Of a DNA stretch of 64,000 nucleotides, positions 546 through 62,585 are shown one piece after another. The stretch spans positions 13,211,001 to 13,275,000 of the forward strand of contig NC_092673.1 in NCBI RefSeq assembly GCF_964355755.1, written 5' to 3'. Position numbers and translations under genes: made by a program. This stretch comes from Antedon mediterranea. Taxonomy: Eukaryota; Echinodermata; Crinoidea; Comatulida; Antedonidae. Numbering within the stretch: the first letter of the stretch is position 1; each line of letters opens with the position of its first letter. The notes beneath the pieces were generated by a model. That model was given only the letters and a program-made list of their open reading frames with translations. It ran no database searches and was not told the origin of the DNA.

Positions 546-1108
546 TTAAAACTCAGAATCAAAATGTTCATTACTGCCAAAATAAATAAAATAATTCTTA
601 TAAGCTGGTTCAATGGATAGATAATCTTTTAAATGATAAGTTCTGCCATTAGTTGTTAACACTTCAAGGTTAGATTTAAAAACAAAACGTGAATTTATTG
701 AATCAATATCGTCGGATTGAGGCCACTTTAAAATCCCCCCCTTTCCCCGTGTCATAAATTGTACAGTGGCTTCTTCAGAAATTATATTAATAACGGAACC
801 AACAAACCAGTCTTGTTCATAAGCTACAGCGACAAACTCACCATGAGAAGTAAAGGTAAAGGGTTTAAGTTTTTTAGCAGGTGGTTCAGAGGAAATAAAG
901 GAAGATGAAGTAGCAGATGGTGATGTAACAAAAGGTGAATTAGAAGAAGATGATGGTTTGTCGCTTTCTAAAAAAGTTGCAAGAGTCCGCTTTAACCCAG
1001 AACAGCTACCAATAACGGTTTTCAAGATTTCTTCCAGTTCACACGCCAATTTATTTGAAAATGTGATTTCTTTTACACCTAATGTTTTTAAGTATCTCAA
1101 TCCATCTT
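546..1108 (-). pseudogene. C-terminal part of transposase-like protein (copy 1)
   Basis: Open frame of 184 codons from 1100 to 546. It continues the protein encoded upstream at 1109-2458 but in another frame. If the frame is shifted near 1125, the protein reads on as CAILKDGLRYLKTLGVKEI, so the ATG at 1100 is probably internal. A Ser/Pro-rich linker (about residues 48-75) precedes a compact C-terminal domain with GEFVAVAYEQDWFVG, then a KWPQSDD core and NGRTYHL. Similar GDWV-type domains with a central KWP motif end many invertebrate transposon-encoded proteins, from memory. The stop at 546 looks like the natural end. I infer a transposon protein tail broken by one frameshift. No host function is visible. 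Confidence 0.6.
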
Positions 1109-2458
1109 TTAGAATAGCACATTTTCTGTTTTTCCCTTTCCCTTTAATACCCGTTTAATGTCATCAATGGTGCAGCATGGTCCCCCATGTTCCCCTATCC
1201 TTTCCCACAAAGCCTTTTCCGTTTGTTGTTTTTTTAAGTCTTTCTGAATCTTGGTTTTATTTGCCTCCTCTAGTTTTGCTTTTACTCTAGTTAGAACTTC
1301 ACACTCTCTAATCTTCTGTCTTTCCTTTACACTTTCTACTTTTTGACGTGCGAACTCAAGTAATTTTTCTTGATCACCTTTGGATTTTTTAACTAACCAT
1401 TGTGATATTGTTTTGTTTCTTTTGATCATTTGAATGCTTGAATGATAATAAATGGAAGCATTTCTGCGTTTAAACAAACTAAAATATAAATCACCAAACT
1501 CAAACTCGCTCACAAGATTAGTTAATTGAGCACCCATCTTCTCACGCAATTCTTCACTCGGTTCCTCACTAAAACTCCCTCCCTCAACAAAATCATTCAA
1601 CTGTCTCTCTGTCACCTCAACAAACCCTTTCATTAACTCTCGCAAAACATTTTCTGTCATTTCATCAGTCCCTTCACTTTCTCTCAATTTCATCCAAACT
1701 TCATTTTCTTCATTCAACTTAAAATCATAAAAAATTGAAACTGGTGTACTTAATAATAAATTGCTGTCTTCAGACCATAACTTAAATGAATTTAACATAG
1801 CTTGAACATATTTAAAGAAATCAACATATTGTGTATCACTACGTAAAAGTAACCAAAATGGACCAGTAACTGAAAAATAAATTAATCCTAATGCCCTAAT
1901 TAATGACATAATTTCACAACTTAAACAATCATGCAAAACATTTTCTACTTTTAAATTCAAATTATCTTTAAAATTAGTAATAAAATCAATGATATCATGA
2001 TGATGAAAATAAATAGTACCAGCACCTTCAAAAAAATTATTAAATCGATTCATTCTAAATGAAGAAACTAAAGATTTAATACCCTTTTTAAAACAATAAC
2101 CCTCCCACTCTTGTCTTATCCCATTCTTTTGATCCCCATGTGGCCCTAAAATATCACAACCCATCCTAATCAATCTTGAAGTAGCAGATTCCCCCGCAGA
2201 TTGAAACCTGGCAAACTTCCCCAAACAATCCCTACCCAACCTTGTACCTAATTGTTTAATTAAAGAACATTCAAAGTTTTTAAAAATAAAATCTGACTTG
2301 TTGGACAAACCTAACAAAAAATGTGCATTACAAAACAAGTACTTCAAATCATCAACACTATCACCACACACATCATTCCTATATTCACTCAATAACTTAG
2401 TAAATTTCTTATTCACACTCGCTCTGTCATTCATCGTCGCTCTCAACTTGCTCAGCAT
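1109..2458 (-). pseudogene. Central part of transposase-like protein (copy 1)
   Basis: Open frame of 449 codons. It holds, in order, MNDRASVNKKF (near residue 9), CNAHFLLGL (near 42), a basic stretch with FARFQSAGESATSRLIR, GPHGDQKNGIRQEWEGY, FRMNRFNNFFEGAGTIYFHHHDI, HDCLSCEIMSLIRALGL, TGPFWLLL and FKLWSEDSNLLLS, then a Glu/Lys-rich helical tail. This motif order matches an uncharacterised DDE-type transposon protein family common in cnidarians, echinoderms and fish (recalled, not searched). It overlaps the upstream frame (2427-3692) by 32 bases in a different phase. Relatives keep a spacer of roughly 40 residues between the two parts, so a small deletion plus a frameshift is likely. The same central motifs recur in decayed form at 14.6-15.1 kb. 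Confidence 0.65.
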
Positions 2459-3692
2459 CTCTCTCTAATAGAGTAGCAGAATCATCACTGGCAATTGACG
2501 AGAACCCACCTGATAATATTTGTCCATTGTTAAAATTTACTTGTTTTCCCCAGAATTTTTTCCCTCCCCTTGAAGTCCCATCCCCATGTAGGTCCCAACT
2601 CTCACATTCCTTCATGCTCTCCTTCAATTGCAATTCACACAAAACATAAGCTCGATCAATAATATTATTTGCTGTTGAAGCACAAGGTACATTTTTCAAA
2701 TTAACATCAAATAAATCAGTTGCCACTCCTGCCATCACCTGCCCTACTTTCTGTGTCCCCACCCCTTGCTCACCACACAATCTTATCACACTAATATCAA
2801 CACAATCTTTATATCTTTTACCCTCCTTCATTTCCTTTTCACTTCCATCATCTACTCTCTCCTGTAAAACATCTAATTCTTTCATCAAAAAATCCTCATG
2901 TCTTTGTAACTTAATTACCTGGTCACTTGATTTTTTTTTGGATATTTTTAAATTATAGTTTCTAATTTTTAGCGTTTTTATCTGCTGTTTCCATTTACCA
3001 ATATTTGTAACAACTTTTTTTTGTTTTTTAACTATTTTTTTTTCTAATATTACAAGATTTCTTTTTTTCCTATCTAATATTTTCCCAGCTTTTCTACTTC
3101 TGAATCCTTTTAACTCTTTCTTCCTTTCTTCCAACTGATTTATATTAACCTTTCTTTCTTCTTCAAGTTTTTTCTTTTCAATTGTTAGTATGTCCACCTT
3201 GCTCGCTATCTCCTCACATTTCCTTTCCTTTTCTTGGTATAACCCTTTCACAACTCCTAACTTCTCTCTCATCTTTTCCATCTCTTGTGTCATGTTAACT
3301 AATTTTTCTTTTAGTCTATATGCCTCATCCTTTGAATCATCATCACTGGTGCTGCAACTTGCCACATTTTCAGTCTGCTCTTCTTCTCTGTGTATTTCTT
3401 CTTCTAAAAACTCTCTGCCACCCTGGCTCCACCTCCTGTCTTTATTCAGTCTTGCATATACTTTTTTTGTGTGTTTAGCTTCTTTTTCGATAAATTTCGC
3501 TGTGAACTCCCCTGGCCATAGCATGTTTACTCGTGTAAACAGGTCATTTCCTGTATAGACCAGGAAGAGTTCACGTAAAATTCCTCTATTCAATGAAGGC
3601 AATGGTGCTTCCGGTGGCTGATTGAAAGTTGACCGGTTGATGCCTAAGGCATTGCATCTATCACGTTTTACAAACAAACAATAGGAAACCAT
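2427..3692 (-). pseudogene. N-terminal part of transposase-like protein (copy 1)
   Basis: Open frame of 421 codons. It begins with a basic region (FVKRDRCNALGINRSTFN) and a segment RELFLVYTGNDLFTRVNMLWPGEF that recurs in copy 2 near 15.6 kb. An acidic Ser-rich linker follows, then a long Glu/Lys/Arg coiled coil (about residues 120-290). After that come SVIRLCGEQGVGTQKVGQVM and SWDLHGDGTSRGGKKFWGKQ. The Asp in HGDGTS sits where relatives of this family have the first putative catalytic acidic residue (family memory; unverified). The frame runs upstream without a stop for a few codons, so the ATG at 3692 is not certain. The gene continues in the frame starting at 2458. An upstream exon may lie at 4281-4466. 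Confidence 0.65.
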
Positions 3693-4063
3693 CAGGTCTA
3701 GACATTTTTGTATAATTTTTAATAAAATTTTGTTTAACTCAATTTAAAGGATTTAATCATCACTTAAAATAGTCCATAATATAATTGTGTTATTTTGTTA
3801 TAGCCAAATTGAAAAAAAAGCAAGCGAATGTTGATTAATTCTAATCAAATTAAACTAAAAAATATCACATGAAAGTGAAATTGTTTAGTTTAATTGTTAA
3901 AGAAATAAACATTGCTGTATTATTGTTTGTTTGCAACCAGGTTAAATATATATTTTGAAATATACTGAACACAGAACAAAATAAAACTACCTAACCTAAC
4001 ATACCCAAAAAATAAATAATAATTTCTTCTGTCCAATGTTGCCAAAGGCAAATTAATGACAGC
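3693..4063. other. AT-rich spacer, probable intron or 5' flank of copy 1
   Basis: About 370 bases of AT-rich sequence between the broken transposase-like gene and the upstream exon candidate. I see no protein-like frame. By comparison with copy 2 (15.69-16.26 kb), which keeps a similar gap of about 570 bases, it is probably an intron or leader of the element. Confidence 0.4.
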
Positions 4064-30690: not shown

Positions 30691-33253
30691 ATGCCGCGTA
30701 CATGCTTTTTTCAAGAGTCCTGGCTTTTTGATAGCAAATTTTCCCCGTGGATTAACCGTGCGTCAATAAAAACGGAGGCAAAGTGTAAACTATGTAGAAA
30801 AACATTAGATACTGTATCTCCAACATGGGACGGTCGGCGTTAATATCTCATCAAAACGGAAAAAAAGCATAAACAACAAATGGAGTTGAGGTTTAACAAT
30901 ACGACGCAAGAAGTTAATCAATTTTTTAGTAAGTCCAACCCAACAACATCCACCAGTAAATCTAATAGTACCATCACCAGTATTGAACAACAAGACATAC
31001 CAGGAACTAGTGTTGATAATAGTATACCGAAACGTACGAACCCAAGTGGCCCGGCGACGATGCAGTATTTCAGTAGTAGTGAGGAGATTCGTAAAGCAGA
31101 AATATTGTGGGCCTTATTCATGACTAACCGGCACTATTCGAACAAGTCGATGGATGAAATAAATGAAGTATTCCAGGCAATGTTTCCAGATAGTGGAATA
31201 GCTGCAAAATTTAGTTGTGGTGAAAAAAAGTCTGCTTATGTTGTTAATTATGGGTTAGCGCCATATTTTAGGTAAGTTTTGTTTGATATTGATTGATATA
31301 GGCCTACAATTTAGATTAAATAAATAATTGTAATAGGCATTTCTGTATTGAGTAATAGCCTGGTGAGTATGAAAAACAAATGTTTTTAGTCTAAGTTTTG
31401 TTCATTTTAGGTCATTACTTCTGAAACGTGTTACGGATGAGTCAGATTACGTTCTACTATTTGATGAAAGTCTAAACAAAGGTACACAACTAAAGCAAAT
31501 GGATATCCATGTCCGATTTTGGGCTAACAACCACGTGGAAACTAGATTCTTTGATAGTACATTCATGGGTTATGCTACTGCTGAGAAAGTCGTCACCGAT
31601 TTTAAGATATGTGCAGACAAACTAAATCTCGCAAAATTACTTCAAATCGGTATGGATGGTCCAAACGTCAATTGGAAGTTTTATAAACTTCTCTCTGCCG
31701 ATATAAAGACGAATTACAATACATCAGTTCTCAACATTGGGTCGTGTGGCCTTCATGTAATGCACAATGGGTTTCAAAGTGGTGTGCAGTCAATTGATTG
31801 GAAGGTCTACGACATACTGTCTAGTTTACAAATACTGTTCAAAGACACCCCTGCTCGTCGGGAAGATTTTGAGAACGCTACTGGCACACATGTGTTTGGC
31901 CTTAAGTTTTGTAAACACAGATGGGTGGAGAATGCTGCAGTTGCGAAGCGGTTTCTCAGTGTTTTTCCGCACCTTAAAACGTACATCAAGCAGGTGACCG
32001 AAATGAAAATAAATGACTCAAAAACAAAGTCGTATGACACTCTGAAGGCTGCTTCAGTAGACTTATTTACGGTGCCCAGAATGCACTTTTTTGTGATGGT
32101 GGCCACACAAATGGAAACGTTTCTTAAAAAATATCAAACAGATCAACCAATGATACCGTTTCTTGAGAAAGATCTAGTGGCATGTTTGAGAGGGCTATTG
32201 AGATTGGTCATTAAACCAGACGTCCTTTCCGGGCTCGTGAATGGCCAAAGTTTCACTAACTTTAATATAGATGAAACGAAAAACCATTTACTTGCTAACA
32301 AAGTAGACTGTGGAATATTAGCTTCAGAGCATATAAAGGAGTTGATCAAGAAAAAGAAGGTGTCTGAGTTACAAGAACTCAGGTTTAAAAATGAGTGCAA
32401 GACCATGGTTCTTACAATTGTTAAGAAAGTGCTATCTAAATGCCCACTTGGTTTCAGAATCGTTCAAAAAGCGAAATTTCTCGATCCAAGAAATTTTTGT
32501 TTAAGTGGTAATGCGCGATCTCTTAATGTTGGTAGACTAAAGGCTGTATTAAAAATATTAGCAGACAACCAAAAAATCAACCATGACATGTGTGATGAAA
32601 TTGTTAATCAGGCAAACGAATTCTATGATTTTGTTGTGTTAAATAATTTATCAGATTTCACTGAATACGATCCTAAATGTAGAATTGACGAATTTTACTA
32701 TGACCGCCTTAGCAAAACCACTAAGTATCACGCATTCTGGGGGGTAGTAAAATTGATTCTAATGCTTTCCCATGGCCAGGCGACTGTTGAGAGAGGTTTT
32801 AGTGTAAACAAGGAGGTAGCGGCTGTCAATATGTCAGAGAGTACATATGTTTCGAAGCGCGTTGTATGCGGTCACATAGCTTCAGTTGGTGGTGTTTTGT
32901 CTGTAAAGATAACGCCCCAATTAATTACTTCTGTGAGTGGGGCTAGGCAACGCTATAATCTCCATCTTGATAATGAAAAACGTAAAGCGGCAGAATCTTC
33001 AAAGGCTATTAAGAGAAAATCGACGATCGATGAGTTAGATAACTTAAAGAAAGCCAAAAAAAGATGTATTGCTGATATTATGGGTTTAGAAAAATCGTCT
33101 GCAAAGTTTTCCGATCAAGCTGAAAGTAAAGGTAGTCTTACCCTCATTGCCAAAGCTAATAGCTTGCGTAGAACCGCTTCTGAAAAAAAAGAGCAATTAG
33201 CTCAACTAGAGGAAGACATTAGACATAAATTAGAGGAAATCAAAAATAGCTAG
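30691..33253 (+). CDS. hAT transposase, two exons, frameshifts in the BED finger
   Basis: Exon 1 (30691-31271) ends TTTTAG/GTAAGT. Exon 2 (31411-33253) follows TTCATTTTAG, and the join restores an open frame (PYF-R-SLLLKRVTDESDYVL). The 139-base intron is therefore well supported. The N-terminal region encodes a BED-like zinc finger (AKCKLCRKTL, then SNMGRSALISHQNGKKH), but reading it needs two compensating frameshifts, near 30825 and in an A-run near 30865. Exon 2 continues LLFDESLNKGTQ, MDIHVRFW, QIGMDGPNVNWKF, NIGSCGLHVMHNGF, FKDTPARREDFE, LKFCKHRWVENAAVA and ends with the hAT dimerisation motif LSHGQATVERGFSVNK plus a coiled-coil tail. This motif series is a known hAT-like family in fish and invertebrates (memory). 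AATAAA lies at 33339. Excision and integration at the terminal repeats is the expected role. The finger damage may make this copy inactive. Confidence 0.82.
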
Positions 33254-41665: not shown

Positions 41666-41702
41666 CACGTATAAAAATGAAATACTTTGCGATTTTACTT
41701 AC

Positions 41703-41779
41703 AATTAGCTACTGTTAGCCCATATATGCGTGTTAGATATTCATAGTCTCCGAATATGAAAACAGTAATTTGTTTGTCT
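41703..41779 (-). pseudogene. FGDYEYL exon, copy B
   Basis: A 77-base exon with a TTTTATAG acceptor and GTAAGT donor encodes RDKQITVFIFGDYEYLTRIY, GLTVANC. The exon in copy C (57860-57936) has exactly the same length and phase (KQVKVFVFGDYEYLARICGL). The FGDYE(Y/F)L-x3-YGL-x-GA motif marks an uncharacterised transposon-associated protein family found in many invertebrates and fish (memory). Confidence 0.65.
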
Positions 41780-41879
41780 CTATAAAATGAAACGAAGTGA
41801 CAAATTTAGTTTTATCTTATTTAATATATTTAATATGGGTCACATGTTGTAAAAGAATAATTATACAACTATGTACTAA

Positions 41880-42125
41880 CCTTATTACTGCATGTTGCAA
41901 ATGTTTAATTTGATTCAAATGCCTTTGTAGGCCTGTCCTCAGGTTTTGTGTAGTGTGTTGCCTCAAAACAATCCACAACAACAGTATTTTGGAGTGAGTT
42001 TGGGTGGTCAACATTTGCAATTTGAATCATTTGTTTAAAATTCCCACCCCACCTTATCACCGCCAACTTTTATCCAAAATTGAGAGATGGGAATTTTTCC
42101 GTTGTGCCATGTAAGTAGGTTAAGC
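41880..42125 (-). pseudogene. GGD exon, copy B
   Basis: Reads LTWHNGKIPISQFWIKVGGD, K, then after a one-base shift GGNFKQMIQIANVDHPNSL, QNTVVVDCFEATHY and, in the first phase again, NLRTGLQRHLNQIKHLQHAV; a GTTAGT donor follows. It aligns residue by residue with copy C (58045-58300) and with copy D (55563-55785). The GGD may hold a catalytic Asp (inference). Confidence 0.65.
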
Positions 42126-42234
42126 CTATACAATAATTATTTTTATATTAATTACCACCTTTTTCCAGCCTCAGATAAATATATAATGTAATGTTAATTT
42201 TTTAGTGTTAATTGTTTTTTACAATATTCACTTA

Positions 42235-42375
42235 CTTATCCAATTCATTAATTTGTTGTTCCATTAATTCGTCTGTGTGGATTATTGACAAGTATTCAGA
42301 AATTAAGTTTCCACTGATAATATGTTCTTGCTGTCCACTCATATTGGCCTCGCATTCTGTTTGTATGCCATAATT
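42235..42375 (-). pseudogene. TECEA exon, copy B
   Basis: Reads NYGIQTECEANMSGQQEHII, SGNLISEYLSI and MEQQINELDK. The counterpart in copy C is YGVRTECEAKMRHQKNIIID, DNLISQYVPMEYS. It lies immediately upstream of the GGD exon in both copies. Confidence 0.6.
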
Positions 42376-42419
42376 CAACCTGTTAGTGGCGGTTTCATCA
42401 CTGTTGGTTGAATCTAGCC

Positions 42420-42720
42420 AGCACTCTCAGATATGACATGGTCCCAGCTGTATTGTAAATGAGAGTTCTCTGTTTCGTTTCCAGGTCAAACACAGGATAG
42501 TTTGAATAGCCAATAAGTCGCCGATTGGTAATTTGAAAGGTGTAGATAAGAGTTTTTGCAATTCTTTTGGCATGGATTTGATCTCGTCTGCCTGTTGAAT
42601 ATTGGTCTCTTCACCATTGACCTGACCCGATTAACAAATTTGGTTGTGTTTCGAATGGTCCTTTTACCAGCAAGTGAAGAATCTATCCTAGCCTTTGGAA
42701 CATTGAACTGTCTGGATTGT
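42420..42720 (-). pseudogene. Helical exon, copy B
   Basis: Reads VPKARIDSSLAGKRTIRNTT, KFVNRVRSMV, then in a shifted phase EETNIQQADEIKSMPKELQK, LLSTPFKLPIGDLLAIQTIL, CLTWKRNRELS. This is protein-like over 90 codons with one frameshift. It lies between the zinc region and the TECEA exon. Confidence 0.55.
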
Positions 42721-42829
42721 CTGAAATGATGATTTACACTACTGTAGCCAAAATTGCATTTTTTAAAAATAAGGTGGGGTGGGGGTTGGCAAAAATAATT
42801 TTATGCTGGTAAGTTAATAGTAAGAACGC

Positions 42830-43320
42830 TAAATTAAGATCATGTACATTTGGAAGACACACATTTCCCTTTACACAAAAGTTGGCAGTTGTCTTGTCGT
42901 TTGATTGGGCCAACTTGGTTTTTATAATGTGTTGACCTAGTTCCTCCATTATTGGTGTTAGTGGAATGTGTGGAGGATGATGTAATGTCATCAATTGTAG
43001 TATTGTTTGAAAGGCTGGTGATATGTTGATGCATTGTGATGTAGACGGGCTAAAGTAATCGTGGTCCAGAATACAAACATGACTGGATTCGTCCCAACAT
43101 TTAACAACAGTTCGACAACATTGGCATTGTGACAACAGACGACAAATAACACTCTGCAAATATTGGCTGAGCTTCAGTAATAGATTCAAAGTGCACAGGA
43201 ACATTATATACAGCACATTGCACTGAATCGGCCTCGTCATAGAGAGGCTGAACACAGCTTTTACAAACAATATGTTGACATGGTGGAACAACAGCACATT
43301 ACAATTACAATTTTAAACTA
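42830..43320 (-). pseudogene. RING-like zinc region, copy B
   Basis: The best reading is CAVVPPCQHIVCKSCVQPLY, DEADSVQCAVYNVPVHFE, then after a shift QSVICRLLSQCQCCRTVVKC and WDESSHVC. This gives a C...C-x-H-x2-C-x2-C cluster like a RING core, followed by a second C-x2-C...H-x2-C cluster. RAG1 and RAG1-like transposon proteins also have a RING followed by extra zinc fingers; the similarity here is in pattern, not proven. The 3' part (42840-43034) is a Ser/Thr/Asn-rich linker. A homologous segment is at 37665-37944. Confidence 0.5.
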
Positions 43321-43917
43321 ATTAAATACTGTAGTTCATTTGTACATTAAAAAAATAAATTAACATGTTGAACATACATGTCATACTCTGTTAGGTAGCT
43401 AAAAACATGATCTTTTATGTTTGTCAATCTGACAACAGCAACTTCTTCTAGAGACAATCCTTCGATTGAAGAAGCCCCTTCACATTTCACGATTATGTAT
43501 TTATGCGTTTAGACCAAATGGTCCTTAATTATGTCCTTTTGCTCAACCCGCATGACCCGAACATTATATACAGCACATTGCACTGAATCGGCCTCGTCAT
43601 AGAGAGGCTGAACACAGCTTTTACAAACAATATGTTGACATGGTGGAACAACAGCACATTACAATTACAATTTTAAACTAATTAAATACTGTAGTTCATT
43701 TGTACATTAAAAAAATAAATTAACATGTTGAACATACATGTCATACTCTGTTAGGTAGCTAAAAACATGATCTTTTATGTTTGTCAATCTGACAACAGCA
43801 ACTTCTTCTAGAGACAATCCTTCGATTGAAGAAGCCCCTTCACATTTCACGATTATGTATTTATGCGTTTAGACCAAATGGTCCTTAATTATGTCCTTTT
43901 GCTCAACCCGCATGACC
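43201..43917. repeat. Exact tandem duplication, 360 bp period
   Basis: Bases 43201-43557 recur at 43561-43917 with no difference seen in a base-by-base read; the period is 360. The unit starts ACATTATATACAGCACATTG and ends CTCAACCCGCATGACC. It includes the start of the zinc-region exon (43201-43300 and its copy), so that exon segment is duplicated. Perfect identity inside otherwise heavily decayed sequence means a very recent event or an assembly artefact. Confidence 0.92.
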
Positions 43918-44325
43918 TTTTCAGAGGCAAATAACCCAGGACAGAATCTAAATGTTAGAGAATAGTATGTTATTTGTTTTGCAAAATCTTTTATTTATGA
44001 TCAAAAGCTTCAGTATATCAAATTGAGCACTAATTTAATGTGTTAATGTTATTGATTATTTATGCTATTATTAATAATTACTAAGCAAATGAATTACAAC
44101 AATTTGTCATAATTAAAACAATAATATGATTAACATACCTTCGCAAATTGCGTTGCTGATTCCAATTAATGTGGCATCCGTTCATTATTGCAATTCAAGG
44201 CATTTTGTTTTTTGCATCCATCCGGCTGTTGTGTAGGGCAGACTTCAGTAAAGTGACTAGGTATTCACAATTTCTCTAACTACACTTTGTATTGTCATAA
44301 AGGCGCGTTCTTATGAAAGCCCATT
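43918..44325. other. Spacer, nothing recognised
   Basis: AT-rich sequence between the tandem duplication and the inverted-repeat unit. No frame or repeat of note. Confidence 0.4.
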
Positions 44326-47358: not shown

Positions 47359-48131
47359 CTAAAAGTACTGCATTTTGCCTTTCTGCATCCTGGATATCAA
47401 AATAATATTTTATATAATAGAAAATTGCAATTTTAATATGATAACAAGATATTTTGGATCACTAATGTTGGGATGGATCAGTCATTGACTGATATATTTT
47501 GCTAAAAATTTGTGTTGCACTTACCTTGACTCTTTCATTTTTGCTCCAAACACTACTTTTAGTTTCAGTACACGTATCCGCGACTACAGACACAGGTAAT
47601 ATAGGATTACTGCGCGTTCGTGACACGCTTGGCTACGCTCTGTTATGAAATGTATTTTTTGCCGGAATTTTTGCACGGAATAACCCTATTTAAAGCACTG
47701 ATTTCACTCCAATTAGATTTCCCGAGATAAAAGTAAGTAACTGAATTTATTTATTATAACCTATTTTCAAAAATGTGCATGAAAAATGAATTATATTTAA
47801 TTTAAATCTAAATACCTTACTTAAAAGAAAAATTCCTGATCAGAAATTATAAACATTACTTTTCGTATTTCAAGTAAGGTTTATATTAAATTTCAATGCC
47901 TACCACTTCAAAATTGCTACGTTAGGAATGTGCAATAATTATATATATATTTATTTATTTACGTTTCTTCCGATGTATAATGTGAGTTCATATGCCTATA
48001 TGATTAACATGTTTAATGGCATATTATGCATTAGACTTTTTTTAGATACAAAATGTTTTTGTTGACATTTATTTTTAACATGGTATAATAGATAACAATT
48101 TTTAAAATAATTGCTAAATTTAATTTTACAG
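47359..48131. other. No gene recognised
   Basis: AT-rich sequence. The last bases form a good 3' splice site for the next feature (TTTAATTTTACAG). Confidence 0.5.
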
Positions 48132-48412
48132 ATATGGAAAAACATAAAACAATCTTAAAAACTCTCTGCATGGTGTGCAGGACAAAAATGAGTAAGGATG
48201 ATGCATGTGCCAAATTAGTGGAGCAGTACTCTGAACAACTTGGTGTTGACAGAGATGATATTGATAAAAATATACATCCAACTTCTTTTTGTCATCTCTG
48301 CTTCACCAAGTATGTTTCACAGAAAAAAAACTGCTCCACTAAACCCATGGCTTCCAAACAAGCGAACTGGAACTTGTGAGATTTGCAAGTTAATTTTTAA
48401 CATTGTTGTTTA
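48132..48412 (+). pseudogene. Exon resembling the RAG1 N-terminal zinc-binding region
   Basis: The exon follows TTTAATTTTACAG and reads TLCMVCRTKMSKDDACAKLV, EQYSEQLGVDRDDIDKN, IHPTSFCHLCFTKYVSQ. After a +1 shift near 48340 it reads NPWLPNKRTGTCEICKLIF. This order (C-x2-C, about 35 residues, IHPT-x-FCH-x-C, then W-x-P...C-x-IC) parallels the zinc-binding part of the RAG1 N-terminal region that precedes its RING. Some mobile elements (N-RAG-TP type in molluscs, and relatives) also encode a RAG1-like N-terminus, so a transposon origin is more likely than a host RAG1 gene. It lies on the opposite strand to most neighbours. No RAG1 catalytic core or RAG2 was found in the window. Confidence 0.6.
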
Positions 48413-48645
48413 GATAAAACAATTATATTTATATTTTTATAGTTTGTAAATTTAATATTGTGTTTATCGACCTAAATTGTTTAATCATCGACCTAAATTG
48501 TTTAATCTATTGCGAGAATGCCAATGGGGATATTTCATCAATGAAAACGCATCTTGGCTTGAGTGGGTTGAGGACACGGTACGGTTACAGTATGTAATAT
48601 AAAATAATTAATTACAGTTGCACTGCTTTAAGAGAACAGTATTAT
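48413..48645. other. AT-rich spacer
   Basis: Contains the short direct repeat CGACCTAAATTGTTTAATC (48470s and 48490s). No gene. Confidence 0.45.
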
Positions 48646-49025
48646 TAATTTCTTTTTTCAAAAATATTGAAATCCCGCAAAAATCCCGCCCAATATTCCG
48701 ATCTTTAAACGGGATTCTAATCAGGATTATCGGCAAAACAAACTTGATATTTAGCGGGATTTTAGCCGGGATCCGCCAAGAATCAGGATCGGGAACGGGA
48801 TTTTTTAAAGTGAAGTTTAGACGGGATTTCAGCCGGTATCCGGTCCCGGTGGGGAAAAATGTTCGGTATTTCCGTTCCCGACCGGGATCATGTCAAGAAT
48901 CCTGCTCATGAGCGGGATTTTTTTTAGTTATATATAGACGGGATTTTAGTAGGATTTCAGCCGGGATCCCGTTCCGACGGGATGTATGGATTTCCGCTGT
49001 CAACTGGGATCCCGGCAAATGGCCG
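48646..49025. repeat. Degenerate CGGGATTTTAGC repeat
   Basis: Many copies of CGGGATTT, AGCCGGGATCC and CCGGT-type words in both orientations over about 380 bases. A related scrap occurs at 51660-51695 (GGTCGGGATACCGG). It is much more GC-rich than the surroundings. The open frame 48618-48911 is a by-product. Confidence 0.65.
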
Positions 49026-52665: not shown

Positions 52666-54122
52666 GTAGGACGCCCTCAGTTTTCAAATCGTGATTTAAG
52701 TAAACATGCTTGTTTACCTTTAACTTTAAAATGACCAATGATAGGGGTTATTCTCGAAAAATAATTTATTATTCATGAGTTATGTTCCAAGGATATTTAA
52801 ATTTCACGAGAAACCCGTCACATTTTAATAAACGTATTACAAGCATGGGTTTTTCGGTGGAGAAGGTAGGAGCATATTTTTTCACTGAAATTCAGAAAAT
52901 TTTCATCTGCAATTTTAATTAAGGACATTAAAATAATCCGAAATAATTAAGGGGGCTGGTGTACATCTTGTATGGAATTAACTCTGATATTTTAACGTTA
53001 AAAAAAATGCGATGTAGTGTTCTGTAGTTTTCGAGCTATGACATTATTTGCATTGCTACCAGGTAGAGGCCCATTTGGGTTTTATGATATAAAATGTACT
53101 ACTGTACTTGGTAACATTTTATATCATAAAATTAAAACCCTACCACAACCTGGCGATACCGGGCGTAGATGACCGACCACACTGATCATTTTAATTCTAC
53201 ATGTATGTTATATATTTTATGTTTATGTACATGTATGACTAACAATTTCTTACCAAATGTTGTTTTTCTACGCTTTGGCTGCCTGGCCTCATTCTGGATA
53301 ATTGGAATTGTTCAAGTGAAGCGACTCTTCATTATGGACCGGTTCTTTTTCACCTTATACACTGACAAACCTTCTACGTTTATTGAAAACCGCATGAATG
53401 CCTTCTCCACCCTGCTCTCCTAAGAGGCCCAGACCATAATTCCACCTGCAGAGTTGTTCTACTACATGGAATTTCAACAAGTGGAGTTTTAGTGAAACCA
53501 GAGTGGATACTGATCTGTAAGCCGTCATGAATTTCTTGATCTGATGTCTGTATATGGTAACAGTTTATTCAATCATTCAGTCCTACATATTGTTGGAAGA
53601 TCGTAGATTGTATATTATGCGATAAATATTATTTAATAAATTTTTGATATAATATTATTATTATTATATTAATAAAAATATATTTGTTAGTATAAATTAT
53701 AAAAATATAGATATAAGGAAGAAAAGCAAAGAGAATATACTAAAGGAAATTTAGGCGATCTTGTCAAAGATCAAGCGCCTTCAGCCTTCCACGTTTTGAT
53801 ATTCAATACTTGACCTGACGTGGTTCCACAATATCTTTATATGAAAATGGTAGAGTGGATAGAAATATTAATTAATTTAAATTTAAAATGTTTACCTTAA
53901 ACTGGTTTTGAACTGAATCGGTTGATGTCTTATCGTTGTATGTATGATTTGGTTTGGTTTAAATTATGTTCAATAAAAGTGCGTATGCGTATAGAATGAA
54001 ATGCTCGCGTTACGACGCGTGTAATGTTGTTTATATCGTATAATAGATAAAGGATGAAAAATAGAAGGTATGATGGTAGAAAAATAAAAAAGTAGTTTAG
54101 GATGTAGAAATAGGAAATCATT
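52666..54122. other. No gene recognised
   Basis: AT-rich sequence. The only structure is the inverted repeat at 53080-53131. Open frames at 53169-53423 (plus) and 53930-54121 (minus) lack domain-like composition. Confidence 0.5.
53080..53131. repeat. Perfect 18-base inverted repeat
   Basis: TTTTATGATATAAAATGT (53080-53097) is the exact complement of 53114-53131, with a 16-base loop. Sequence just outside still pairs loosely (GGGT and ACCC), so the ends of a small MITE or hairpin element are possible. Confidence 0.75.
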
Positions 54123-56330
54123 TGCCATCAACAAGTTTGATTTTTGCAATCCCAACTCTGTTTTGCAGTTGACTTTCCCCAAGAACTTTTTTCGGAATAA
54201 ACTCTTCAATGACTGGGACCTATAAAGAAACAAAAATAGAATTTGTTGGTAATCCTGATATTTTGTTGTGATTACTTAAAGATGTATTGTCCCCCTGAAA
54301 AAATGGGATTGAAAAAAAAATTTATTTACTTGAAAAAATGTAATTTAAAGCAAAAAATGGTCAAATTGGCTGCAGCCAATGGATGGAAAAATCATGAAGA
54401 CATGGGTTTTTTTATGTTTTTTTCTCCTACAAAATAACATATTCAAAGTCTGATTTAATTAATCTTCATTTTTCATGTTTTTTAGGGAACAATACATCTT
54501 TAACCTTGAAATAACAAAACTAAACAAAATATACCTGTAGGCCTTTATGCACATGGTTGCCATTAAAGGCCATGAAATTGCTGTCTTTGGATTTTGTTTT
54601 CCTTAAGATAGTTATCAAGAGCGGTAACAATAGGTCCCGTTTCAAAAGCTAATTCTGTTGTCATCTGCTGTTTCTATTGGAGGAAAAACTATTCAGTTTT
54701 TATGTTTATTAATTTCAATATTGTATTTGATATAAAAATATATATCAATAAACCTAAATATTTTGTTATTTTTGTAGTGCAGTATCATACTGTACATACA
54801 ATATTGACAATAGTTTCATTGGCTTTCATTATTTTCTTTATGTCTTTATCAATTTCAGCCCGGCCACCTCCATTGTAAAAGCCTAATGAGAGTTGGTCTT
54901 CCATTTCCTCGATTTTTTCTTCTACTTTTTGTTTTTTTCTTTCTTAGTTCTGTAATAGAATTTTTAAATTGGTAAAGTGTAAAATTATGAAACATAAATG
55001 TTGGCATCAAACAAATTACAGGACCCACTACTTGCCTGCTTGTTCTTCTTTTATTATTTTTCCAAATTCAGATTCTTTGAATCATCGTCGTCATTGGATT
55101 CTGCAATCTGTAGTTGCGACTTAAAGATAATGGAGTCAATTTCATGCGTAGCATTTTATAAAGTTTCTTAAAAACACCCAGTGATATGTGCAATGATGAA
55201 ACAGATACCTATATAAAATCATAAAGCATTTGTAAATAAAGCTGTCCTTGTATTCAAATAAAAAAAGTTGGCCAAACAATAAAATCTTACATGGTCAATG
55301 GGTATTTCCATCAATGGTGCCATAACAATACACCTTGATGTTTCTTTAGCCCTCTCTCTTCTCATGCCAACTTTCTATGGGATGTTTTCCTTCTGTGATT
55401 TCATCGTTTTTTTTAATGTACAGAATAAGCATTGATAGCGACCTAGAAAAATGCAATATTTATATTTTTTTTATTATCTTTTTGTGTGTGTTACGGGAGA
55501 CTGTTTTTTGGTTGGCAATTTGTAAGTAACAATGAAACTCAATTATAAAACGAGCATTATGTACCTCTATTTAAGCCATTCATCTCTAGTACTGCATGTG
55601 ACACATTTGGTAAAGTTTCCTGTATGTTGAACATGCAGTCGGGACCTTCAAATATGAGGACTACAATTACATTTCTTGTAGCATTTGGATTTCGGACATT
55701 TAAAATTTGAACCTCAAATTTAGTTGATCGTCCTCCTTGATCACCCCCAAACTTTAGCCAGATTTTACCATTAAATGTATTAGTACATCACAGCCACTGA
55801 TCACCAACTGGGCCCTCTGGGAGACCAGTCTTTTGACTGAAGAGGTTACCCAGTATAAATATATATTTCAATTCAATTCAATGGATCAAGGTTATTTAGC
55901 CTGTGAAAAAAAAATAATGTGCTTTTTTTTTTACTGTTTCCAGATTGAATGTATGACATTTTCACTAGATGTAATACTTACTCAAGATGCTGTTCCAGAT
56001 GATTCATGATATGTTAAGCCACACAGTTTGTCAGTTCGTGTGGATTTTGTCATCACCTTTAACGATGTTGCAATGAATCTATCATCTATAAGTTCACCTT
56101 GTCTTTTGCGAATTTAATAAGATGTATAAAACAAGTAAGAAGTTGCCTAAATCACAGGCACAGAATGAATTCTCAACCACCCGGTATTTGAAATACATAC
56201 ATACGTACCGGTTAATTTTTCTTAACTGCTCCCACGTAATGTTGCAGTACAAGGGCTTTATCGGTTGACATTGCTGGTAAATCTTGGCCTGCCTGCCTCA
56301 ATTCGTCTGGAGATGCATCTTGAATGTTTT
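54123..56330 (-). pseudogene. FGDYEYL-family gene, copy D, exon remnants
   Basis: Minus-strand pieces in N-to-C order: 56330-56215 (IQDASPDELRQAGQDLPAMS, TDKALVLQHYVGAV); 56105-55985 (RQGELIDDRFIATSLKVMTK, DKLCGLTYHESSG); 55785-55563 (GKIWLKFGGDQGGRSTKFEV, QILNVRNPNATRNVIVVLIF, EGPD); 55440-55280 (GRYQCLFCTLKKTMKSQKEN and RERAKETSRCIVMAPLMEIP); 54955-54795 (EKIEEMEDQLSLGFYNGGGR, AEIDKDIKKIMKANETIVNI); 54672-54535 (KQQMTTELAFETGPIVTALD, QRQQFHGL, NGNHVHK); 54222-54123 (VPVIEEFIPKKVLGESQLQN, VGIAKIKLVDGK, after TTTCTTTATAG). The order matches copies B and C and the family as I recall it (GGD, CLWC, GNHVHK). Few stops fall inside the exons, so it is moderately well kept. Confidence 0.65.
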
Positions 56331-57639
56331 ATGCGATGGATACTTGAGTCGTGATTTTGTTGGTCACGCTGGATTTCAGGCGATTTCTTTTTTGAAAGGT
56401 TTTTTAGTAACCTCTGAACTTTTAAAGGTTGAATTTGTGATCAGAGCAATTTAACCTTTGGCTGTTGGAATTGATAACCACAATTTATGTAATGAATATT
56501 ATTGCAGGAATTCAATTGGAATAACATTACATACAGTTTTATATAAACACCAACATGCACAGAACATTAATTCTAAACCGCCTAAATTAAATAATTTGAA
56601 ATGGATGTGAGAATGAGAAAAAGTCGTCAAAAAAAAAAACCCTCTACTTGATATGCAGATGTTCTAACCATTTTTCAAGTTAAACTATATAAATATTTGA
56701 GATAAATTTATTCTTACCCTTCCTTGTGTGTAGATTTTGTGTTGGCTTGTTCGCTTTAGTATGCAAGTCAATATTAGCCATCTAAAAAATAACATTTTAA
56801 TTATTACTAACATTTTTAAACGTATTTTCTTAATTTAATTATACATAGTAGTACTGGTAGTAGGCTAGAAAGCCACTCCGAGAGTGCATACCTGGGCCTA
56901 CTGTAAAATTCTCCTACATAAGATTTCTCCGGTAAAAATATATAAAATAGGTTTTTTTAAACTACTCACATCAAAAAACGTGCACATTAAATAAAATTAT
57001 GTTTTGAAATTACAAATCATAAATTATAACTCTTGCCTCTTGTACAAAAATGAAGTTTTTTGGACAAGTAGTTTTCGAGAAAATGGAATTACAGATTACT
57101 TGTTACTTTAAGACTGCTCGCCGGCTTTTGAAAAAATTTGTCCTATCTTTTAACACTAGCAGGTCTGAAAAGTATACTAAAAAGTGGTCCAGAATTGGGA
57201 CCGTGGTCCAAAATGGTCCCAATAATCTGATTCTTCAGAGACAAAAAAAAATATGTAAAAATTTAACTTAATATATTTACAAAAATATTGTTGGTGCTGA
57301 AAGAAACTCATCAGTTGTTCCACTGGTGTCACCTAATAGCATAAAGACACTTAAGTAAAGACACTTAAGTAATCTTTCAGTTGGTCTATTCCATTGTGTA
57401 TGTCTTCTGCCTTGTTTTCTAGGTCTTTGATTTCATTTGTCATGGCAACGACTACCAATATCCCCACATTCTTAGTTTTGAAGCAATGCACTATCAGTAG
57501 ACTTTAAAATGATCCAGTCTGACAAGTTGCCTCAAGACTGGTGAAATGTTTTAAATATAAGCCTAGGCTTATATGTAAGCCAGGAGCATCTATATAAAAA
57601 TGTGAGGGAACAAAATAATTACCTTGTTTTATGAAATTT
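56331..57639. other. No confident gene
   Basis: AT-rich. A plus frame at 57050-57271 (73 codons) has no recognisable motif. Downstream exons of copy C could have decayed here, but I cannot point to any. Confidence 0.4.
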
Positions 57640-58870
57640 AAGAGTCACGCAAGCTCTCTGAACCTGTCAAAGTCTTCCTTCAGAGTGTCCAGTGTCCTTG
57701 GAAGTTTTGATTTGGTTTTTTTTTGGTTGCATGGCACCACAAGCAGTAATGTCGTCCTTGAAAACAAAATTTAATACACATTTGCTTTCAAATATCCATC
57801 ATTTATTAATTGCTAATATTTGCAGTACTGTACCTGTAATACATATATTTTTTGTTTACCGTTTGCACCTGTTAGGCCACATATACGAGCCAAATACTCG
57901 TAGTCGCCAAATACGAACACTTTGACTTGTTTTCCCCTATTAAGAAAATGAAGCCAGTTAATAATTTGTCTTAATTCACACAAATATATTTGTAAAATTG
58001 TATTTGTGCAATATTTTACTTTGACAGATAAATGGTATATTTACGTTAATGTGGAATTTTGCAGCTCTTCGAGTTGAGGCAAATCCTTGAGACCAGTTCT
58101 TAAGTTAAAACTAGAATCGGTTGCCTCAAAGCAATTGATGATGATGGTATTATTTTGGGCATTGGGGCGTAGTACATTGCAAAGCTAAAGCATCTGCTTA
58201 AAATGTCCACCACCCTTATCCCCTCTGATCTTTATCCACATTTGATCTGATGGAATGTGGCCATCGTGCCATGTTAGAATATTTAATCTGTAAAAGGTAT
58301 TGATATTTATTTGATTCATTTTAAAAATTCAGTAACTAAATTAAATCTGTTAATGAAAGCAAATATAAAACCTACTTTTCTAGTTCATCATATTGCTGGC
58401 AGATTTTGTTGTTGAGACTTGCAACAGAAACACATGTCGTTGCATGAATATTCCATAGGGACGTATTGAGAAATTAGGTTGTCGTCAATAATGATGTTTT
58501 TTTGGTGCCTCATTTTTGCCTCGCATTCTGTGCGGACGCCATAATTTTTTTAGCTACTGTAGCTTTAAAAAAAAAATAAAAATATTAAAAACTATAATGT
58601 TGAGGGTGTTCGATTCAGATACTGCAGAATGCAGATACTGCAGAATGTTGATTTGTTATTTACCATTTCAGTTCTCTGCTTTTTTTATGTTAGGCCAAGA
58701 TTGGTTTTTAAAGATAGCAAACACCAGTTGGAAGATGTGTCGGACTTTTAAATTGAGAAAACTCACCATCTCTTTGAGAACCGAACATCATCGATGAATT
58801 TACTTCTGTTGTGAACAGTTCTCCAACCTTTTTCTTGTTGGCATCGCCATTGCTTTTAGTTTCTGGTTTA
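57640..58870 (-). pseudogene. FGDYEYL-family gene, copy C, exon remnants
   Basis: In N-to-C order on the minus strand: 58868-58770 (ETKSNGDANKKKVGELFTTE, ending at a GTGAGT donor); 58545-58400 (YGVRTECEAKMRHQKNIIID, DNLISQYVPMEYS); 58300-58045 (LTWHDGHIPSDQMWIKIRGD, KGGGHFKQML, NNTIIINCFEATDSSFNLRT, GLKDLPQLEEL); 57936-57860 (KQVKVFVFGDYEYLARICGL, TGAN); 57765-57640 (RHYCLWCHATKKKPNQN, then after a shift PRTLDTLKEDFDRFRELA). Splice sites around the 77-base FGDYEYL exon are intact. A stop inside the GGD exon and a frameshift after CLWC show decay. The same exons are found in copy B. Confidence 0.7.
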
Positions 58871-59712: not shown

Positions 59713-60115
59713 ATGGGAAAAAAAAAGCCAACAGACGTAGGCGCAAAATCACAGGAGTCGCCCCCGGTGCTTGAAGCAGCCGAGGCGCCCAGCACGGAAG
59801 CACTGAGGCGCGAAATCCAAAAAACAGACGTAGGCCAACAATCACTGGAGTCGCCCCCTGTGCTTGAAGCAGCCGATGCGACCAGCACTGAGGCGCGAAA
59901 TTCAACAAATAGCAAGAGAATTGTTTGGTATACGTAACCAGCTGGACACGGTCCTAACAAATCAGAATACCATACTTGGAAGGATAGACAAAATTGAAAA
60001 CAAACAAACTCAACTTGAAACATCAATTGAATTTGTTAGCAGTACGATATCAGAAATGGAAATCAAAATGAAAAATGTAACTACAGAGCTTAGGCGTATC
60101 ATCTACTGTTGAAGC
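59713..60115 (+). pseudogene. LINE ORF1 N-terminus, frameshifted, with internal duplication
   Basis: Starts ATGGGAAAAAAAAAGCC (MGKKKPTDVGAKSQESPPVL). A unit of roughly 95-105 bases (ACAGACGTAGG through GAGTCGCCCCC to GCACTGAGGCGCGAAAT) occurs twice in tandem (59731-59818 and 59824-59905). At about 59885 the reading switches phase to LRREIQQIARELFGIRNQLD, TILGRIDKIENKQTQLETSI, a coiled coil typical of ORF1p trimers, ending with a stop near 60110. The RRM part continues in another phase from about 60175 (SFNLRFGGLPEEI). Confidence 0.6.
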
Positions 60116-60185
60116 TGAAAAATCAAAGTGCTTATCGGTACAAAATCAACTGAACAAGTTTGAACGCTATTCAAGGTCTTTTAAT

Positions 60186-62585
60186 TTGCGATTTGGTGGC
60201 TTACCGGAAGAAATCAATGAAAATACAGCCCAGAAAATCACAGACCTGATTGAAAATGAGTTATGCATTCCTAATGTTAAAATAGAAAATGTGCACCGGT
60301 CCGGTAAGCCGCGAGGACCTAACGACAAGCCCAGGCATATCATCGCCAAGTTCATATATCGTCCCCAGCGACATCAAGTTCTCTCCAAGTTCTCTCTCAC
60401 CCTAAAAAAGAGTAGCGTTTACTATTACCAACATGTGAAGTGCAGCACGCGGGAATCTGTTACCCTTGACGTATGTTATTCAAACGTAAAACACGCATAT
60501 TTAGCAAGAAAATTGCCGAAACTTGGTAAATCTGACCATAATTTAATTATACTACAACCCAAGTATCGTCCATTAGTACAACGGCAGAAACCCAGGGTAA
60601 TTACTGTAAAGAAGTGGACTCAAGATGCAATAGAACAGCTGAAATGCGAATTTGAAACTACGGACTGGAGTGTTTTTACGGAAAATTCAAACGGGTCAGA
60701 CGAGGTAACGGAAGCGGTCAGTGCATATATTAACTTTTGTACTGAAAATGTAATACCAAAAAGGAAAGTAAAAATCTACGGAAACCGTAAACCATGGATA
60801 AGTAGGGAGGTGACAGATGTTATTAAGAAAAAGAGACAGGCCTTCGATCGAGGTGACGTAAATGAACTAAATAAAATCCAAAAGGAACTTAAACGAGTAA
60901 TACGTAAAAGTAAACTAAAGTACAAACGTGAAATAGAAGAACATTTTGTAGGTAATGATATGAGTAAGGTTTGGAGGGGAATGAGGCAAATGAGCGGATA
61001 TGCAAAATCGCCACAAGGAAGTGGAATTGTGTCAAATTTGACTAAACAATATGCTAATGAATTAAATACTTTTTTTAATAGGTTCGATCGCTATAATTTT
61101 TCTGATGAACAGATCTTAATCAAAAGTAGGTTGGCCTTACCAGATGAAAGTGGTTTTGACCTTAAGACAAATGCGGATGAAGTTACCAGCCACTTTAAAG
61201 GTCTGAAAGCATCCAAATCAGCTGGACCAGACCAAATTCTACCCAAAGTTCTTAAATTATGCGCAACCCAATTGGCAGATATTTTTGTATATATTTTTAA
61301 CTTGATTTTTGAAACACAAACCTTGCCAGAATCCTGGAAAACGTCATGCATCATCCCAATCCCTAAACGACAAAATATACAGTGTTATAACGATCTTAGA
61401 CCTGTTGCGCTAACATCCGTCCCAATGAAAGTCTGTGAAAAGATTGTTCTAAAAAGCCTGAAACCATTAGTTGCAGATTTTTTGGACCCACATCAGTTCG
61501 CTTATCGGAGAAACAGGAACACTGAAGACGCATTAATATACAAAAATGAAAAAATGTATGCCCATCTTGACAATTGGAGAACATCCCCGTCTGTTAGGAT
61601 TATGTACTTCGACTTTAGTTCAGCTTTTAATACCATCCAACCACACATTTTAATTAATAAGTTGTTCGGCATGAATATCCCCAATTTACTAATTTCGTTC
61701 GTTTTTAACTTCCTCGTTGGACGTCTCCAGTTTGTTAGGCTAAATCAAAATGTCAGATCGGACATTATTCGGACAAATACGGGAGCACCACAAGGTACTG
61801 TACTTGCACCGTTTTTGTTCACATTGTATACGTCAGATTTCCAACCTAGATTCCCGGACTGTCCAGTAATTAAATTTGCAGATGATTCTGCTATGATAGG
61901 TTTAATAAAAGAGGATGACGATACAAATTTCAAATCTGAAATAGTTAGGTTTACGAAATACTGTGATGAAAATTTCCTGGAACTTAATGTAGCAAAAACC
62001 AAAGAAATGCGAATAGATTTCCGCCGTAAAAAAAGAAGGGAAATTGAGCCTGTCCAGATTAAAGGACATGAGGTAGAAATCGTTAAAACATATAAGTATC
62101 TTGGGGTAACGTATGACAATAACTTATCATGGGGAGAGCATGTAGATCAACTAATTAAAAAATTAAATACTAGACTGTACTGTTTGAGGAAAATGAACGT
62201 TTTTAGGGTAAGGGAAGAGATACTTACTATGTTTTATTCATCTGTTATTTTTTCAATCTGGGATTATTGCCTATTAGGCTGGGGTGGGAACATAAACAAA
62301 GGAGATAAGGGCCGCATATGTAAAGTGTTAGAAAGGGCATTAAGAGTGATTGGCTCGTCGGCGCTGACAGCGGACTCAGTCTACAATTGTCACTACGGAG
62401 AACGATTGAAAAATGGTTTACAGGCGGTCATGGAGGAGGAAAGCCACCCCCTTCATTCGGATCTTCTTCGCTGCCACATTGGTAGAAGTGGTAGACTGAG
62501 GCCGGTGTTGGCGCGGACGGGTCGATACTCAAATTCGTTTCTCCCAGCTGGGATTAAAAAATTTAACGATGACTTTAAGAGGTAA
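60186..62585 (+). CDS. LINE reverse transcriptase fused to ORF1 RRM and endonuclease tail
   Basis: 799 codons, open throughout. Residues 1-80 (RFGGLPEEINENTAQKITDL, VHRSGKPRGPNDKPRHIIAK) are an L1 ORF1p-like RRM. From about 80 (YYQHVKCSTRESVTLDVCYS, then LGKSDHNLIILQPKY) it is the last part of an APE endonuclease. The reverse transcriptase follows: ASKSAGPDQILPKVLK, SWKTSCIIPIPKR, YNDLRPVALTS, QFAYRRNRNTEDAL, motif A FDFSSAFNTI, motif B TGAPQGTVLAPFLF, motif C FADD (about residue 564), YKYLGVTYDNNLSW. It primes cDNA synthesis at the target in active elements. The direct ORF1-to-endonuclease junction removes the ORF1 C-terminal domain and the endonuclease active site, so this copy cannot be fully autonomous, although the RT motifs look complete. 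The ATG at 60186 is internal to ORF1. Confidence 0.85.
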   Translation: MRFGGLPEEINENTAQKITDLIENELCIPNVKIENVHRSGKPRGPNDKPRHIIAKFIYRPQRHQVLSKFSLTLKKSSVYYYQHVKCSTRESVTLDVCYSNVKHAYLARKLPKLGKSDHNLIILQPKYRPLVQRQKPRVITVKKWTQDAIEQLKCEFETTDWSVFTENSNGSDEVTEAVSAYINFCTENVIPKRKVKIYGNRKPWISREVTDVIKKKRQAFDRGDVNELNKIQKELKRVIRKSKLKYKREIEEHFVGNDMSKVWRGMRQMSGYAKSPQGSGIVSNLTKQYANELNTFFNRFDRYNFSDEQILIKSRLALPDESGFDLKTNADEVTSHFKGLKASKSAGPDQILPKVLKLCATQLADIFVYIFNLIFETQTLPESWKTSCIIPIPKRQNIQCYNDLRPVALTSVPMKVCEKIVLKSLKPLVADFLDPHQFAYRRNRNTEDALIYKNEKMYAHLDNWRTSPSVRIMYFDFSSAFNTIQPHILINKLFGMNIPNLLISFVFNFLVGRLQFVRLNQNVRSDIIRTNTGAPQGTVLAPFLFTLYTSDFQPRFPDCPVIKFADDSAMIGLIKEDDDTNFKSEIVRFTKYCDENFLELNVAKTKEMRIDFRRKKRREIEPVQIKGHEVEIVKTYKYLGVTYDNNLSWGEHVDQLIKKLNTRLYCLRKMNVFRVREEILTMFYSSVIFSIWDYCLLGWGGNINKGDKGRICKVLERALRVIGSSALTADSVYNCHYGERLKNGLQAVMEEESHPLHSDLLRCHIGRSGRLRPVLARTGRYSNSFLPAGIKKFNDDFKR

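Follow-up and report, generated by a model that had tools for sequence, protein, structure and literature searches.

RAG1 is a protein of antibody making. Its catalytic core is derived from Transib, as stated in passages of Kapitonov and Koonin (2015; PMC4411706), and its central non-core domain (residues 87-217) binds two zinc ions and double-stranded DNA, according to a part of PMC3124419 that also describes mutants of C110/113, C175/178 and C210/213 made in this two-zinc domain. The same passages of Kapitonov and Koonin report a Chapa domain in Chapaev transposons, with a RING behind it in two of the subgroups; they recognize Chapa plus RING in no other known transposable elements and Chapa itself in no transposons beyond the Transib/Chapaev group (PMC4411706). 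The signature D-D-C(2)C-H(3-4)H-E is given in a portion of PMC12730594 as common to EnSpm, Mirage, Chapaev and Transib. A further mobile element with a RAG1 N-terminal-like sequence, N-RAG-TP of Aplysia californica (Panchin and Moroz), is cited in a passage of PMC8355894.

We analyzed a window of 64,000 nucleotides from the crinoid Antedon mediterranea, the whole stretch of DNA considered here, whose features are collected in Table 1. The first-pass annotation had read in it an exon with zinc motifs in the order of RAG1, the third after a one-base shift, behind a clean 3' splice site, and these readings hold, as do their coordinates. The splice site TTAATTTTACAG occupies positions 48120-48131, and the exon starts at 48132, with an ATG at 48134 (+). 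The frame 48134-48379 (+) is translated as MEKHKTILKTLCMVC...DKNIHPTSFCHLC...QANWNL* and encodes C-x2-C and IHPTSFCHLC; W-x-P...CEIC is encoded in a different frame, downstream of a run of A that counts eight in the window exon versus seven in the C5 copy. Against the C5 copy, the only close copy found, the one-base shift looks like a lesion of the window copy. For the searches and for fold prediction, the exon was also read through the frameshift once, which places cysteine pairs at residues 12/15, 53/56 and 81/84 and a tryptophan at residue 72 (W72); these are three C-x2-C motifs in the order of the RAG1 N-terminal zinc domain, with the shift preceding the third. An AlphaFold2 model of the read-through exon alone (mean pLDDT 45.5, pTM 0.28) was discarded. 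Dense GGGATTTTAGCCGGGATCC-like repeats, recognized by eye, lie just 3' of the exon at 48661-49020, and part of them recurs at C2:23479862.

Table 1. Features of the window and P-type relatives elsewhere in the genome, as assigned from sequence comparison
Feature	Position	Strand	Remarks
5' terminal sequence CACGTATCCGCG of a transposon copy	47571..47582	+	Identical to the family A 5' end (C3, C6, C7)
Non-coding 5' part and intron	47603..48131	+	Ends in the 3' splice site TTAATTTTACAG at 48131
Very probable first coding exon with the Chapa (RAG1 N-terminal) zinc domain; one-base shift within the A-run	48132..48389 (3' end approximate)	+	
Third-coding-frame remnant GDISSMKTHLGLSGLRTR	48526..48579	+	15 of 18 residues as in the family A third frame
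Chapaev relic: Chapa end (EWAPHKRISCEAC), damaged RING, post-RING zinc segment	37691..38091	-	tblastn
Chapaev relic(s): RING, post-RING zinc segment, D1 (GGDK), D2 (GDYE), internal repeat	41698..43940	-	tblastn
Chapaev relic, another family: D1, C-x2-C, H-x4-H, GEQGGE	53370..55766	-	tblastn
Chapaev relic: D1, D2, C-x2-C regions	57357..58588	-	tblastn
P-superfamily (PF21787) transposases with a RAG1/ZAD-like start: L036, L037, L039, L046, L040, L044	C5, C3, C6, C11		

We compared the exon with RAG1 as a single sequence and as part of a profile. With the RAG1 model of Pfam (PF12560, cut-off 23.3 bits), the exon alone scored 17.2 bits (E 0.0039) and the read-through exon 16.3 bits, both below the cut-off, and in a phmmer search of the exon alone RAG1 (E 0.048) ranked behind a repetitive protein at 1e-5. 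A search of the exon against its own assembly, with an E limit of 10, gave 22 places including the window: three copies 50% identical to the exon over query residues 1-71 (E 3e-13), the C5 copy, 66% identical over residues 10-61 (E 2.3e-11), and 17 remaining matches at E 0.0029 or worse. On a profile of three relatives from which the window exon had been excluded, the exon scored 60.7 bits, whereas no shuffle out of 10,000 exceeded 16.3 bits, and none of 10 shuffles of the exon had a RAG1 match in Pfam up to E 1. In a profile search with four rows including the window exon (profile A1), RAG1 came out at the top of the PDB (E 1.7e-9 and 1.2e-7), with the next unrelated chain at 0.65. In the A1 alignment, the first and third C-x2-C pairs fall on C110/C113 and C210/C213 of RAG1, and the middle cysteine pair lies within the aligned HPTEFCHDC. 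The PF12560 cut-off was passed by two of the three relatives scanned (L015, 33.5 bits; L012, 25.0 bits); the exon of family A stayed below it at 17.7 bits. The 315-residue frame of L015 aligns to residues 106-374 of the RAG1 chain of 6oem, which we take to be the mouse protein, and thereby covers both zinc domain and RING. A scan of NCBIfam gave no match for any of four proteins, and none of 37 pattern matches among viral contigs (IMG/VR) was confirmed. At the level of sequence, the profile comparisons confirm the exon as a RAG1-type zinc domain despite its weak single-sequence match.

Chapaev elements have CAC...GTG terminal inverted repeats and a 4-bp target site duplication. Such CAC...GTG ends occur in EnSpm too, according to a portion of PMC12730594. 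Among the better preserved relatives of the window copy, family A is a young family of 6.56 kb: its C3 and C7 copies are 99.95% identical over 6,559 bp, and near-identical copies sit on different chromosomes. The C6 copy runs from CACGTATCCGCG to CGCGGATACGTG, the end being the inverse of the start in the two parts read, with CCAG on either side; the 4-bp duplication is clear in one of the three family A copies, the C3 copy having an altered 3' end and the C7 copy being cut short. The frames of family A encode, in order, Chapa, a RING-like segment, a further zinc segment, GGDKGGG, GDYE, HFCLYC, HILCEH and GEQGGES, and the same plan is found in families C and D and in that of L042, with the catalytic motifs D-D-C(2)C-H(4)H-E in order. 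The C5 partner copy shares with families A, C and D the cysteine pattern of a RING after Chapa. The Pfam RING models were passed by none of the three scanned (L015, 19.6 versus 27; L042, 15.7 versus 21; L013, no hit), and L015 matched RINGs of known structure (E 1.8e-6). By their description, families A, C and D fit the Chapa + RING Chapaev elements as published. As a side observation, the D1 region matches DUF1280 (PF06918) in L013 (58.2 bits), L015 (71.2 bits) and L034 (49.8 bits), and since these scores exceed the cut-off of 25, DUF1280 appears to be a fragment of the transposase of Chapaev-type elements.

The window copy retains much less. Three blocks (47603-47780, 47881-47955 and 47940-48308) align to the C5 copy at 72-80%; among the matches listed, this copy, itself interrupted and with three of four bases of a target duplication, is the sole genomic partner of the window copy, at 72-85% identity per block. 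No 3' partner of CACGTATCCGCG with two or fewer errors occurs in the window, where the 3' end of the copy was not found. The RING frame, which lies between the first and third frames in the relatives, is missing from the window copy, and all the catalytic frames are gone. The element seems to be old. The window copy is dead and makes no transposase. Barring rearrangement, the minus strand of the window holds relics from at least four further Chapaev-like copies. The RING-like segments noticed nearby in the first-pass annotation are present at 43298-43215 and 43658-43575 (-), within these other Chapaev relics.

We conclude that the exon is very probably the first of the coding exons in a Chapaev DNA transposon that is dead and has suffered internal deletion. 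That the window holds relics of mobile elements with the RAG1 zinc domain, as had been proposed from the letters alone, is borne out by the profile results, by the copies related to it and by the domain architecture in the literature; the suggested kinship is refined to Chapaev, not to a RAG1-like or Transib element, and the copy has turned out to be dead and internally deleted. Any tie to RAG1 proper is via the common domain only. In the relatives, where we infer the exon joins, the exon would open a multi-exon transposase consisting of Chapa, a RING-like segment, a further zinc segment and the D-D-C(2)C-H(4)H-E catalytic region. By analogy, the N-terminal domain may bind zinc and DNA, as in RAG1, and might aid in finding the element ends or in nuclear entry; the RING might act as a ubiquitin ligase, and the catalytic region would cut at the CAC...GTG ends.

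An origin of the exon from a RAG1-like element (TransibSU / ProtoRAG) or from a domesticated RAG1-like gene would provide the same zinc domain, and RAG1 is indeed its best solved relative. However, the related copies carry the GDKGGG / GDYE / GEQGGE region and a RING-like segment, TransibSU is without a RING as described in passages of PMC4411706, and the window copy is frameshifted and deleted, which together make such an origin very improbable. A genome-wide search with PF12940 (RAG1 core, Transib-type catalytic) gave no match, but its control was likewise silent, and the result is not taken as evidence of absence. Slightly less probable still is an exon of a host zinc-finger gene, such as one with a ZAD, whose likeness to RAG1 goes no further than resemblance: the front half of the domain is zf-AD-like in the P-type relatives described below, but the ATG lies 563 bases downstream of the transposon end, the frame is broken, and the window exon, alone or read through, has no zf-AD match in Pfam up to E 1. 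A chance match of motifs, in keeping with the weak single-sequence Pfam score, has a negligible probability and is refuted by the score on the leave-out profile; the shuffles without a PF12560 match and the three genomic copies 50% identical to the exon also speak against it.

Besides the Chapaev copies to which the exon very probably belongs, other transposases were found to start with a related, RAG1/ZAD-like zinc domain. P transposases usually carry an N-terminal THAP. The genome search with PF12560 gave six matches, five of them over the cut-off (two of these only with in-frame neighbours), and two of the six fall on P-superfamily transposases, L036 and its copy L037. The 621-residue frame of L036 matches PF21787 at 7.9e-25 and PF12017 at its cut-off; on PF12560, its first 119 residues score 26.6 bits and the whole frame 16.9 bits. 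L037 passes the same model with 27.4 bits and L039 fails with 18.0 bits. L039 and L046 (617 residues), on C3 and C6, are 99.5% identical along 6,493 bp and have the same 39-base repeat at their ends, seen whole at one end of each. Further P-type places are L040, in which the third C-x2-C is absent, and L044, in which the catalytic match sits in a separate frame; L041 has an N-terminus like those of the P-types but no P catalytic match in its frame. In the genome search with zf-AD (cut-off 28), 4 of 14 places passed (L039, L046, L040 and L045); in the protein scan, the 119-residue start of L039 passes with 28.1 and its whole frame fails with 25.8. A five-row profile of these N-termini (A3; L036, L039, L040, L041 and L044) found RAG1 first (E 1.2e-5) and 7po9 (LD30467p), presumably a Drosophila ZAD, second (E 0.0015). 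In its matches, the P-type domain lies between that of RAG1 and the insect ZAD.

We then compared the P-type and Chapaev N-termini with each other. The profiles A1 and A3 align with a probability of 97.2% (hhalign, E 3e-11), and the Chapaev profile gives 20.2-32.2 bits on the five P-type N-termini, while their shuffled versions, 2,000 of each, reach at most 7.4-12.1 bits. In the other direction, the P-type profile gives 36.2 bits for L012, 32.5 bits for L015 and 23.4 bits for the window exon (best of 10,000 window-exon shuffles, 16.4 bits), but only 16.0 bits for family A (L013), within the shuffle range; the reciprocal profile test of the link is uneven. Of the 36 PF21787 matches listed, at least nine are preceded on their own strand, at a distance of up to 10 kb, by a match of the L036 domain, and at least two by a THAP. 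Six of the nine are firm, lying 868-940 bp away with E 2.7e-8 or better, and two are weak (E 0.11 and 0.36); the ninth, on C4, is the Chapaev-type copy L006, 4.2 kb away, whose position is probably a coincidence. Among the matches listed, no THAP lies on the same strand in the 10 kb preceding the P-types with a RAG1/ZAD-like start. From these counts, a RAG1/ZAD-like zinc domain occupies the usual place of THAP in P transposases here. The window itself yielded no P-type copy with the zinc domain (L036 protein, best E 0.76). As a separate observation, L051 (C1:2821501-2824700) is a P-type frame of which 773 residues were read and which runs off the stretch end, with equal matches at three places; by eye, the part read opens with neither a THAP nor a C-x2-C-rich stretch.

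These observations raise the possibility that two unrelated superfamilies, Chapaev, which is the lineage tied to RAG1, and P, share the N-terminal zinc domain of RAG1 as a mobile module that replaces THAP in P, a proposal that we consider tentative and slightly short of probable. Its standing is lowered because four P-type places pass zf-AD and because the whole frame of L036 falls below the RAG1 cut-off. A literature search, covering sources outside Repbase and outside most subscription papers, found no P element described with a RAG1-like domain. If the proposal is true, the original job of the module would probably have been the recognition of transposon DNA, RAG1 may retain the vestige of a domain that bound transposon ends, and the ZAD of insects may be of the same domain family. 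A related N-terminal domain on P-types would make the module exchangeable and would suggest a role in DNA recognition at the THAP position.

Other open frames in the window include an 834-residue frame at 60081-62585 (+) with a reverse transcriptase match (PF00078, E 2e-27), which belongs to a retroelement. Three overlapping frames at 546-3743 (-), of 202, 451 and 438 residues, match no Pfam family over its cut-off and are perhaps another mobile element, and a 626-residue frame at 31373-33253 (+) has no Pfam match up to E 1.

Compared with known systems, the P-type relatives share the catalytic domain PF21787 with the P element and THAP9 but start with a RAG1/ZAD-like zinc domain instead. Their matches include both ZAD and RAG1 models, unlike those of the window exon, for which zf-AD gave no match up to E 1; to our knowledge, the ZAD is without the third C-x2-C. 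The exon has its three C-x2-C motifs in the order found in the N-terminal region of vertebrate RAG1, where the linkers are longer. The likeness to N-RAG-TP, by its description in part of PMC8355894, is that of a RAG1 N-terminal-like sequence on a mobile element. The closest counterparts, Chapa + RING Chapaev elements, are already published (passages of PMC4411706), and the window copy is very probably another such element. The relatives found here are like them in having Chapa, then a segment resembling a RING, and a transposase with the C(2)C / H(3-4)H signature, as far as these are described in the portions of PMC4411706 and PMC12730594 used here; the window copy differs in being a 5' remnant without the RING and the catalytic exons, and its exon extends by one genome the range in which Chapaev with the RAG1 N-terminal domain is known.
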